In this document: positions 19,622-37,455 of the stretch, piece by piece
How positions within the stretch are numbered: position 1 is the first letter of the stretch
How the letters are laid out: the number at the start of each line of letters is the position of its first letter
Virus record (IMG/VR): IMGVR_UViG_3300027963_000035
Span: 124,001 to 188,000 of that record
Direction: 5' to 3' (one strand)
DNA length: 64,000 nt
From: a virus
Notes under the pieces: model-generated
The model's input: the letters and a program-made list of their open reading frames with translations, nothing else
Told to the model about the DNA's origin: nothing
Database searches by the model: none
Program-made: the position numbers and the translations under genes

Positions 19622-20305
19622 ATGCAAAAGAAAAGAAAAAAAAGAAGTATTGTATGGTCTATCCCGTCAGAAGAATTTCAAGATTTAGTTAAAAATTCTT
19701 CAACTATAGGTCAAATTTTAAAGTATTTTGGATTAACAAACAAGGGAGGCAACAGCGATACAGTTAAACGTAGAATAAAATATGAAAATATTGATATGTC
19801 TCACATTACATTAGGCAAAGGATCTAATAAAGGAAAAAGATTTAATTATAAAAAATCTGATGATGAGTTCTTTTGTGAAAACTCCACAACTCAAAGAAAT
19901 CATATTAAAAAAAGAATCATCAGAAATAATTTAATCAAACATGAATGCTCTGAGTGCGGATTAGTCGATACATGGAATAATAAGAAAATTATTCTGCAAC
20001 TTGAACATAAAAACGGAATAAATAATGACAATCGTCTAGAAAATCTTACATTTTTATGTCCTAATTGTCATAGCCAAACAGATACTTTTTCTGGAAGAAA
20101 GAAGAACAAACCTGTAAAAATTAAAAAAGGTAGAGGTGGGCCTAAGTTGTGGTTGAGAAAAGTAGAAAGACCAACAAAAGAAAAATTAGATGAATTAATT
20201 AAAAAATATCCCATAACTCAGGTCGGAAAGATGCATGGTGTAAGCGACACAGCTGTTCACAAGTGGATTAAATATTATAATTCCGGGGCTACGACTCGAA
20301 CGTAG
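19622..20305 (+). CDS. HNH endonuclease with C-terminal helix-turn-helix, ending inside a tRNA gene
   Basis: 227 residues. The zinc-type HNH domain is at about 120-165: HECSECG, LQLEHKNGINNDNRLENLTFLCPNCHSQT, with the E-H, N and C-x2-C/C-x2-C pattern of homing nucleases. A C-terminal helix-turn-helix (KYPITQVGKMHGVSDTAVHKWIKYY) follows, and the N-terminal half also reads as a DNA-binding segment. The last eight or so codons and the stop lie antisense to the 3' exon of the tRNA-Gln gene, which contains a group I intron. It is probably a mobile endonuclease using the conserved tRNA as its landing site. A close relative at 36810 has the same relation to tRNA-Lys. Confidence 0.85.
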   Translation: MQKKRKKRSIVWSIPSEEFQDLVKNSSTIGQILKYFGLTNKGGNSDTVKRRIKYENIDMSHITLGKGSNKGKRFNYKKSDDEFFCENSTTQRNHIKKRIIRNNLIKHECSECGLVDTWNNKKIILQLEHKNGINNDNRLENLTFLCPNCHSQTDTFSGRKKNKPVKIKKGRGGPKLWLRKVERPTKEKLDELIKKYPITQVGKMHGVSDTAVHKWIKYYNSGATTRT

Positions 20306-20554
20306 AAAAGCAGATCCACTTACCACTATAGTTTTCACTACCATTACTGTTTGTAGTCTGGACTTTATCTTCACCATAGCTTGGCTTTAGGTGTCGCCTG
20401 TTAAGTCTCTACACCTTCCTAAAAATAAATTCTAGGCTTGGCTCGGTATTAGCATTTTAAAGCTTTCACCGAATTTAAGCGATTCTACATTAAAGATTTC
20501 TCTTTAAGCACTCCAGTTTGAAGTCTGCTGTTATACCAATTTAACTACCTCGGA
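20281..20554 (-). tRNA. tRNA-Gln(UUG), split by a group I intron
   Basis: The 5' exon (20554-20521) has exactly 34 nt: acceptor TCCGAGG, D-arm GTTA/TAAC, anticodon stem GCAGA and CTT. The 3' exon (20318-20281) is TGGA, anticodon stem TCTGC, a T-arm CTACG-TTCGAGT-CGTAG, acceptor CCCCGGA and discriminator A. Joined, the loop is CTTTGGA with anticodon UUG. The U1-A72 pair is typical of tRNA-Gln. One acceptor pair is A-C. CCA is not encoded. The antisense HNH stop codon lies in the 3' exon. Confidence 0.85.
20319..20520 (-). ncRNA. Group I self-splicing intron (IC3-like) in tRNA-Gln
   Basis: The 202-nt intervening sequence carries all core elements in order: P (AAATTCGGTGAAAGC, 20462-20476), Q (AATACCGAGCC, 20440-20450), R (GGTGTAGAGACTTAAC, 20400-20415) and S (AAGATAAAGTCC, 20360-20371). 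R and S pair GACT/AGTC as P7. P1 pairs exon ACUU plus intron CA with UGGAGU across an AAC loop, putting a U-G wobble exactly at the 5' splice site. The last intron base is G. A P2-like hairpin TTAAAGA-GAAA-TCTTTAA follows P1. Insertion after position 34 is the site used by cyanobacterial tRNA-Leu introns. Confidence 0.85.
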
Positions 20555-20566
20555 CCATTAAATCTA

Positions 20567-20637
20567 AGCCCACATCTGGAATCGCACCAGAATTTGATGA
20601 TTACAAGTCAACTGTAATGCTTTTATACTATGCGGGC
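20567..20637 (-). tRNA. tRNA-Thr(UGU)
   Basis: Acceptor GCCCGCA pairs with TGTGGGC (one G-U). The anticodon loop CTTGTAA gives UGU. The T-arm is TCTGG-TGCGATT-CCAGA. No CCA is encoded. It ends 12 nt upstream of the split tRNA-Gln, so the two are probably one transcript. Confidence 0.85.
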
Positions 20638-20652
20638 CAATCATTCAAAAAA

Positions 20653-31142: not shown

Positions 31143-31187
31143 TATTTTCCTTTTGTATTGATATACCGGCTGAGAATGGATCGACTT

Positions 31188-31266
31188 ATGGAACGATGGG
31201 ATTTGAACCCATAACTCCTCTTGCTTTTAAAGCAAGTGGAACTCTATCCAGTTGAGTTACGCTCCA
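31188..31266 (-). tRNA. tRNA-Leu(UAA)-like, non-canonical
   Basis: Acceptor TGGAGCG/CGTTCCA, D-arm ACTC/GAGT, anticodon arm CTTGC-TTTAAAA-GCAAG (anticodon UAA), T-arm ATGGG-TTCAAAT-CCCAT. There are four nt instead of one between D-arm and anticodon arm, and the variable region has only seven nt. TCC and GGA there could extend the anticodon stem. No CCA is encoded. The short variable arm is unlike bacterial tRNA-Leu. Confidence 0.65.
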
Positions 31267-31516
31267 CGATAGTTTCACAAATAGTGTCCGGTATCACGCA
31301 CTATTCAACCTTATTTAGGTTTCTATCCGACCCCTGACGCATTTATATTGAATCTGTGCCGGGAATCCAACCCGGATAGAGAGCAGCATAAGCCTCACCA
31401 TAGCCTAGTTCGGCAACCCCATACACCCATTAGATGCAGACGCTGTTTGCTGGGCTATCTCTCTACTGTCGGCAGACACACAGTTTGTATCTCGTTGACT
31501 CCACACCGTACCAAAA
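31267..31516 (-). other. Non-coding stretch with a T-arm-like hairpin
   Basis: No gene supported. A hairpin CCGGG-TTGGATT-CCCGG (about 31356-31372) looks like a T-arm but has G where C56 should be. A candidate acceptor partner lies about 130 nt away, too far for a tRNA and too near for a group I intron. It may be a decayed or strongly divergent tRNA. A block motif is at 31506. Confidence 0.35.
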
Positions 31517-36809: not shown

Positions 36810-37421
36810 ATGGATCCTGCTTCAAAATACCCAAATCAATATGATTTATGTTCCTGTGGTAAACACAAAACAATCTTGTCTAAACATTGTATCAAATGCT
36901 GCAATAATGGTCAAATAAAATATCTAACAATCAAAGATGCGATGGTATCAGCACTGCATGGACAAAGTGCAAAATTTAATGTTGTCAGAAACAGAGCCAG
37001 GGTTCAATATAGGAATATAAAGTGTCAATTTTGCGGATACGATAAACACGTTGAAGTTTGTCACATTAAACCAATCCACTCATTCCCAGAAGAAACTTTA
37101 ATATCTGAGGTGAATGACCAGTCTAATATTTTAATTCTTTGTCCCAATTGTCATTGGGAGTTTGACAAAAAGAATCAAAAACCTAGAAAAGAAAAAATAA
37201 AAAAACAAAGACCAAGGAAGGTTGAATGGCCCACAAAAGAATTACTAAAAAAACTTGTATGGGAAATGCCAACCATTCAAATTGCTAAACAATATGGAGT
37301 ATCTGATAAAGCTGTTGGTAAATGGGTAAAGAAATATAATCTAACCAAACCACCAAGAGGATATTGGAGAAAAAACAAAGAGTGCGACCCCTGGGAATCG
37401 AACCCAGAACCCCAAAATTAA
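36810..37421 (+). CDS. HNH endonuclease with helix-turn-helix, ending inside tRNA-Lys
   Basis: 203 residues. The N-terminus carries a zinc-ribbon-like C-x-C/C-x2-C set. The HNH core is IKCQFCGYDKHVEVCHIKPI and LILCPNCHWEFD (about 68-115). The tail (EWPTKELLKKLVWEMPTIQI, AKQYGVSDKAVGKWVKKYN) is closely similar to that of the gene at 19622. The last 13 codons and stop are antisense to the 3' half of tRNA-Lys. The same arrangement at two loci suggests site-specific insertion next to tRNA 3' ends. Confidence 0.85.
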   Translation: MDPASKYPNQYDLCSCGKHKTILSKHCIKCCNNGQIKYLTIKDAMVSALHGQSAKFNVVRNRARVQYRNIKCQFCGYDKHVEVCHIKPIHSFPEETLISEVNDQSNILILCPNCHWEFDKKNQKPRKEKIKKQRPRKVEWPTKELLKKLVWEMPTIQIAKQYGVSDKAVGKWVKKYNLTKPPRGYWRKNKECDPWESNPEPQN

Positions 37422-37455
37422 AAGTTTCGTGCTCTGCCAATTGAGCTAGGGTCGC
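37383..37455 (-). tRNA. tRNA-Lys(UUU)
   Basis: Acceptor GCGACCC/GGGTCGC, D-arm with GCTC/GAGC, anticodon loop CTTTTAA (UUU), T-arm CTGGG-TTCGATT-CCCAG. All arms are canonical. No CCA is encoded. A block motif lies 26 nt upstream. Its 3' half is overlapped by the opposite HNH gene. Confidence 0.95.

Follow-up and report, generated by a model that had tools for sequence, protein, structure and literature searches.

Group I introns are well established in bacterial tRNA genes, namely those for tRNA-Leu, tRNA-fMet, tRNA-Ile, and tRNA-Arg. In phages, according to a 2014 review by Hausner and colleagues, all group I introns then known were located in protein-coding genes, and their absence from tRNA genes, despite the many tRNAs encoded by phages, was explained by the targets of the endonucleases (PMC3984707). 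A partial literature search returned no paper describing group I introns in viral tRNA genes: introns are not mentioned in a survey of virus tRNAs or in the paper on Agrobacterium phage Atu_ph07, and tRNA introns are likewise absent from the main text of the papers examined on huge, crAss-like, and intron-rich phages. The "group I introns" of 22 to 49 nt claimed in cyanobacterial tRNA-Arg, tRNA-Gly, and tRNA-Lys genes (PMC5733544) were considered as precedents and discarded, being too short for group I ribozymes. Outside tRNA genes, a gene-less intron located beside a free-standing endonuclease gene has been described as a case of collaborative homing (PMC10448857), and phage T4 SegB is cited in that paper as a free-standing endonuclease of a tRNA region that is preferentially inherited in co-infection.

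The gene described here is located in a 64,000-nt stretch (the window; positions 124,001 to 188,000 of IMG/VR record IMGVR_UViG_3300027963_000035, which comprises 251,265 bases) and is a tRNA-Gln(UUG) gene interrupted, almost certainly, by a group I intron (Table 1). The first-pass annotation, made from the sequence alone, had proposed a 202-nt insert after position 34, between exons of 34 and 38 nt, with a P7 pairing, a P1 helix with U-G at the 5' splice site, and a terminal G; all of these elements were found, along with P3 to P9 and P10. The covariance search that it had suggested as a check gave a match to the RF00028 (Intron_gpI) model at positions 20338-20530 on the minus strand, scoring 68.6 bits (gathering score, 50) and spanning the full model (1-253; cmscan, E = 2.6e-15 in the 64-kb window). 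The insertion point lies in the anticodon loop, after U34, as in tRNA introns of the cyanobacterial Leu(UAA) kind (IC3), and no gene was found inside the intron. The 72 nt of the joined exons were folded by ARAGORN as a tRNA-Gln(UUG) with one acceptor-stem mismatch (A-C).

Standard tRNA prediction performed poorly on the unspliced gene. ARAGORN did not find it unless introns were allowed; with introns allowed, both gene ends and the intron length (202 nt) came out correctly, yet the intron was slid 4 nt late and the product named tRNA-SeC(UCA). The anticodon becomes UUG once the intron is set by the rule of a U at the 5' site and a G at the 3' end. The tRNA-SeC and Phe(GAA) names were rejected as products of such sliding, with the U/terminal-G rule and P1 giving Gln(UUG) and UAA instead. 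Splicing after U33, which would result in a GUG (His) anticodon, was also rejected, as it would abolish both the U.G pair in P1 and the G at the intron end.

Table 1. Features of the split tRNA-Gln(UUG) gene, its neighbors, and related elements of the same phage (window coordinates, except where prefixed G000)
Feature	Position	Strand	Basis or remark
HNH endonuclease ORF, 227 aa, convergent with tRNA-Gln	19622..20305	+	phrog_10822, 9e-46
Split tRNA-Gln(UUG) gene	20281-20554	-	exon 1, intron, and exon 2
tRNA-Gln 3' exon, 38 nt, U35 to discriminator base	20281..20318	-	ARAGORN on spliced exons
Group I intron, 202 nt, last base G	20319..20520	-	RF00028 match; covariation of 34 introns
P7 3' strand, AAGUC	20361..20365	-	pairs with GACUU
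P7 5' strand, GACUU	20403..20407	-	5/5 pairs kept, one covarying
Internal guide GAG, P1 with C32-U33-U34, U34.G at splice site	20511..20513	-	alignment helix
P10 guide triplet CUG, with exon 2 U35-G36-G37, two wobbles	20514..20516	-	alignment helix
tRNA-Gln(UUG) 5' exon, 34 nt, last base U34	20521..20554	-	read off the sequence; ARAGORN on spliced exons
tRNA-Thr(UGU), upstream neighbor of tRNA-Gln	20566..20638	-	beside tRNA-Gln in L461-L463 too
Paralogous HNH ORF	36810..37421	+	converges on intronless tRNA-Lys(UUU), 37382-37455 (-)
CAU tRNA intron	G000:208765-209029		after position 36, guide GUG

The closest counterpart is the cyanobacterial tRNA-Leu(UAA) intron, which also resides in a tRNA gene after U34, uses a guide that pairs with CUU with a U.G pair at the 5' site, ends with G, and is small and devoid of a gene of its own. 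The intron described here differs in its phage host, the Gln isotype, a P10 triplet suited to Gln, the adjacent HNH gene, and the presence of introns in several isotypes within one genome. The introns of Azoarcus tRNA-Ile(CAU) and cyanobacterial tRNA-fMet are likewise group I introns of tRNA anticodon loops, whereas the Gln intron is inserted after position 34 and has the guide GAG. Among phages, the tRNA-Arg gene of Microcoleus phage My-WqHQDG (OR578706, 286 nt as deposited) also carries a group I intron; it differs in isotype (CCU anticodon) and insertion site (after position 36), the intron is diverged, and the annotation reveals it by gene length only. The tRNA-Leu(UAA) introns of Atu_ph07 (278 nt) and of the huge phage LR756501 belong to the same family and are also inserted after U34, but their host is tRNA-Leu and they are not annotated in the respective records. 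In Atu_ph07, a hypothetical protein gene (L005, 2271-2387) is annotated over the end of the unannotated intron-bearing tRNA-Leu gene. LR756501, a 735-kb phage, contains a second group I intron (L464, 718159-718390, 96 bits), around which no tRNA was found. Paired group I introns were seen in Pseudoalteromonas phage pYD6-A and, next to capsid genes, in a deep-sea phage (L009 and L012).

An alignment of the Gln intron with 33 relatives, each with 8 nt of exon flanks, was used to evaluate the structure. Of 57 pairs predicted by RNAalifold, 37 show double changes that preserve pairing, and 97.5% of the 2164 pair cells, including those of P7 and P10, can pair, compared to 80.1% in shuffled alignments and 30-42% when the partner strand is slid; cells with double changes number 377, against 104 after shuffling. 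Because pairing and double changes exceed these controls, the structure is not due to chance. The P7 strands pair in every row, and one of the pairs changes from U-A to A-U in 8 sequences. The P1 combination CUU/GAG is nearly invariant across the 34 introns. P10, in contrast, is formed by the three guide bases located 5' of GAG, which are able to pair with tRNA positions 35-37 and vary with the isotype: UUU in most Leu introns, UAG in about half of those in Arg, UAA or UAG in most of those in Lys, UAC in all Thr, CUG or UCG in Gln, and UUG in a UCA tRNA. After reduction, beforehand, to 20 distinct combinations, 33 of 60 P10 positions form Watson-Crick pairs, compared to 20.6 in shuffles, and none of the 20,000 shuffles scored as high. 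The Gln intron and its sister Arg intron (see below) have CUG and UAG, respectively, as required by the host tRNAs, even though two of the three Gln pairs are wobbles. A GAG half-guide fixed against C32-U33-U34, combined with a P10 triplet matched to the anticodon of each tRNA, appears to be a feature newly recognized here.

The presence of terminase, portal, baseplate, and rIIA genes shows that the record, assigned to a phage in the first-pass annotation, indeed represents a large-genome tailed phage. The closest named relative by terminase and portal proteins is the uncultured 595-kb phage LR756511 (52% and 51% identity, respectively), followed by Flavobacterium phage immuto; a Bacteroidota host would be a guess made from that named relative. 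A megablast search with the 24-kb surroundings of the tRNA-Gln gene gave no match among named phages. The same record carries three further Intron_gpI introns, in a tRNA-Arg(UCU), a tRNA-Leu(UAA), and a CAU tRNA; the Arg and Leu introns are inserted after U34, and the insertion after position 36 and the GUG guide of the CAU intron are as in Azoarcus. Four intron-split tRNA genes (Gln, Arg, Leu, and CAU) in a single phage are new here. There are two tRNA-Leu(UAA) genes in this phage (window positions 31187-31267 and G000:213430-213716), one intronless and one with an intron.

A related phage, represented by a 323-kb record (G001), has nearly the same Arg intron (99.5% identity) and an identical CAU intron, and an intronless tRNA-Leu at its Leu locus. 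In the region that matches the Gln locus, the flanks are 90-97% identical, and between them lie a different, intronless tRNA-Gln(UUG) gene and another endonuclease-like ORF. The anticodon loop of that tRNA with its flanks, GACTTTGGATC, is the same as the predicted spliced junction. The ORF showed no endonuclease domain by Pfam and matched a PHROG HNH family at its C-terminal end only. Because the whole tRNA-Gln differs, it is the cassette that has changed between these phages, rather than a bare intron having been inserted, as would be expected of homing-driven exchange of tRNA regions. This sister locus, with its intronless tRNA-Gln and other endonuclease-like gene, is a further new observation; it had escaped the first-pass annotation, as had the three other tRNA introns and the convergent HNH gene (see below).

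Two pattern scans of IMG/VR each returned at least 119 stretches. Among the matches listed, viral tRNA introns were found in Leu, Arg(UCU), Lys(UUU), Thr(UGU), CAU, Ser(UGA), UCA, and Gln tRNAs and, parsed by hand, in Glu(UUC). Viral tRNA group I introns are therefore common in databases though largely undescribed. The earlier suggestion that none are known in tRNA-Gln or in phage tRNAs stands with respect to the papers found, but not to the sequence data, where other viral contigs carry them and tRNA-Gln(UUG) introns occur in at least five further contigs (L019, L092, and L461-L463). A 3' pattern specific for Gln recovered L019 and L092 only; L461-L463, in which one core base differs, were missed, so the pattern counts are lower bounds. 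An 18-base pattern taken from the Gln splice site was abandoned, as it yielded mostly chance matches outside tRNAs. The compactness of the intron, singled out earlier as unusual, turned out to be ordinary, with ~200 nt being typical of this family. When 84,980 species, each represented by one genome, were scanned, the matches listed comprised introns in CAU and Arg(UCU) tRNAs and one in a tRNA-Thr, and none in Gln or Lys tRNAs. In Massilia alkalitolerans (L346), a bacterial tRNA-Thr(UGU) is split after U34 by a group I intron. Introns of this type at the same site were also seen in four viral tRNAs with the UCA anticodon, of the opal suppressor or recoding type (L269, L295, L332, and L335), and six intron-bearing UAA tRNAs (L058, L091, L093, L106, L120, and L123) lack the long variable arm, unlike ordinary tRNA-Leu.

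In a tree computed without the guide region, the Gln intron groups as sister to the Arg introns carried by this phage and the related 323-kb phage (98/99 support), and those in the tRNA-Gln genes of L019 and L461-L463 branch elsewhere. Forcing all Gln introns into a single clade is rejected (p-AU 0.0069); on the tree, isotype labels switch 17 times or more. Since the Gln introns do not form one clade, tRNA-Gln must have gained such introns more than once, with introns changing isotype. The kinship with the Arg intron and the lack of a single Gln clade are likewise new here. The step between Gln and Arg may have taken place inside this genome or in another phage.

The HNH ORF that converges on the tRNA-Gln gene overlaps exon 2 in antisense with its last 25 nt. 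Its Pfam HNH score is under the cut-off (17.7 versus 21.4 bits), and there is a weak C-terminal match to HTH_23 (1.8e-4). In addition to the paralog facing an intronless tRNA-Lys (Table 1), HNH paralogs converge on the Leu and CAU intron genes of the same phage, each with one stop; a search with one HNH query found no such neighbor at the Arg intron. In L461-L463, HNH relatives with 63-70% identity converge on the intron-bearing tRNA-Gln, and a tRNA-Thr is found on its far side, the same gene order as in this phage. With kinship ignored and rows that are not independent, 16 of 49 intron-bearing viral UAA tRNAs, in addition to the Gln and Leu intron genes of this phage itself, have a convergent HNH gene no more than 150 nt from their 3' end, compared with 4 of 561 tRNAs without introns in these loci and none of 82 intron-bearing tRNAs from bacteria, counted in the same way. 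At the sensitivity of one query, other isotypes mostly lack a convergent HNH neighbor, and no HNH relative was found alongside the tRNA-Leu introns of Atu_ph07 and LR756501. Three tRNA-Leu(UAA) introns of ~690 nt (L097, L103, and L118) have a relative from the same HNH family at most ~115 nt from the intron core, encoded on the intron strand and possibly within the intron. Recurrence of the convergent HNH arrangement beside intron-bearing viral tRNAs seems to be another new feature.

A free-standing endonuclease gene adjoining a gene-less intron, the arrangement known from collaborative homing, is thus what is found here, with the differences that the target is a tRNA gene, the neighbor converges on the tRNA 3' end, and its product is a candidate endonuclease. 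SegB, for comparison, is a GIY-YIG enzyme, whereas the gene at the Gln locus encodes an HNH protein and the tRNA carries an intron.

Taken together, these data suggest a compact self-splicing intron that would spread by HNH-linked collaborative homing and move between isotypes with tuning of P10, a reading to which we assign a probability of about 0.85. The intron very probably splices. Bound guanosine would attack after U34, which the U.G pair of P1 holds in place while the guide GAG pairs with C32-U33-U34. Once freed, U34 would attack after the terminal G with the aid of P10, in which the guide triplet is paired with exon 2, and the exons, already paired via the anticodon stem, would be joined into a tRNA-Gln reading CAA and CAG. 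Between phages, the intron is predicted to spread with the adjacent convergent HNH gene, whose product would cut, in a co-infecting phage, tRNA loci that lack an intron or have another occupant, whereupon repair would copy the tRNA, the intron, and the HNH gene as one. On balance, the HNH gene may well drive the spread of the intron; the stops in the HNH paralogs at the Leu and CAU intron genes are evidence against this part of the scheme. Over longer times, introns of the family would have moved between tRNA isotypes, since C32-U33-U34 is common to many U34 tRNAs, and the P10 triplet would have been tuned to the new anticodon after each move.

The acceptor-stem mismatch and the two wobbles in P10 could indicate a decayed intron that no longer splices, leaving tRNA-Gln a pseudogene. 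This is very unlikely, as the P3-P8 core pairs are kept, pairing is maintained across the family, the P10 triplet differs from that of the sister Arg intron in a way that fits Gln, and introns have arisen in tRNA-Gln independently more than once. Related introns do exist in bacteria, but a bacterial tRNA intron on a bacterial or chimeric contig is scarcely credible, given that the 251-kb record also contains the terminase, portal, baseplate, and rIIA genes, that there is a related 323-kb sister record, and that the closest introns among the matches listed are viral.

How the introns change isotype and what role the HNH gene plays leave more room for alternatives. A free intron could reverse splice into a tRNA with C32-U33-U34 and become fixed by reverse transcription and recombination, the HNH gene being a mere passenger of tRNA islands. 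The nearly invariant GAG guide, the sister relationship of the Gln and Arg introns in genes whose exons are otherwise dissimilar, and the failure to find an HNH gene beside the Arg intron all fit this scheme, and we regard it as possible, if rather unlikely, given that HNH genes occur far more often beside intron-bearing than intronless tRNAs of the same loci and prefer the convergent orientation. Reverse splicing and homing are compatible, with homing acting within an isotype and reverse splicing between isotypes. Anticodon nucleases are an established phage defense, and the intron might be kept for a benefit to the phage, such as hiding tRNA precursors from defense nucleases that cut the anticodon or destroying the endonuclease site of a competitor; interruption of the anticodon loop itself and the rival endonuclease-like gene at the same locus of the sister phage point in this direction. 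Such a benefit seems improbable, as the mature tRNA would still be exposed and guide pairing alone explains the position of the intron.

A more far-reaching possibility, for which we see roughly even odds, is that the family constitutes a mobile system of phage tRNA genes: a gene-less group I ribozyme, whose half-guide for C32-U33-U34 stays constant while its P10 half can be retuned, would have spread into a wide range of U34 tRNAs (Leu, Arg, Gln, Lys, Thr, Glu, Ser, and a UCA tRNA), its cassette being moved by a dedicated convergent HNH family. Because viral tRNA genes are often interrupted, the rule that phage group I introns reside in protein-coding genes only no longer holds, and because intron-split genes are missed or misnamed by the tRNA finder, phage tRNA counts are probably incomplete. 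The presence of one ribozyme scaffold in many anticodon loops, each with a matching P10, together with the intronless loci of the sister phage and the candidate endonuclease, makes the question of how group I introns change their host gene a testable one.
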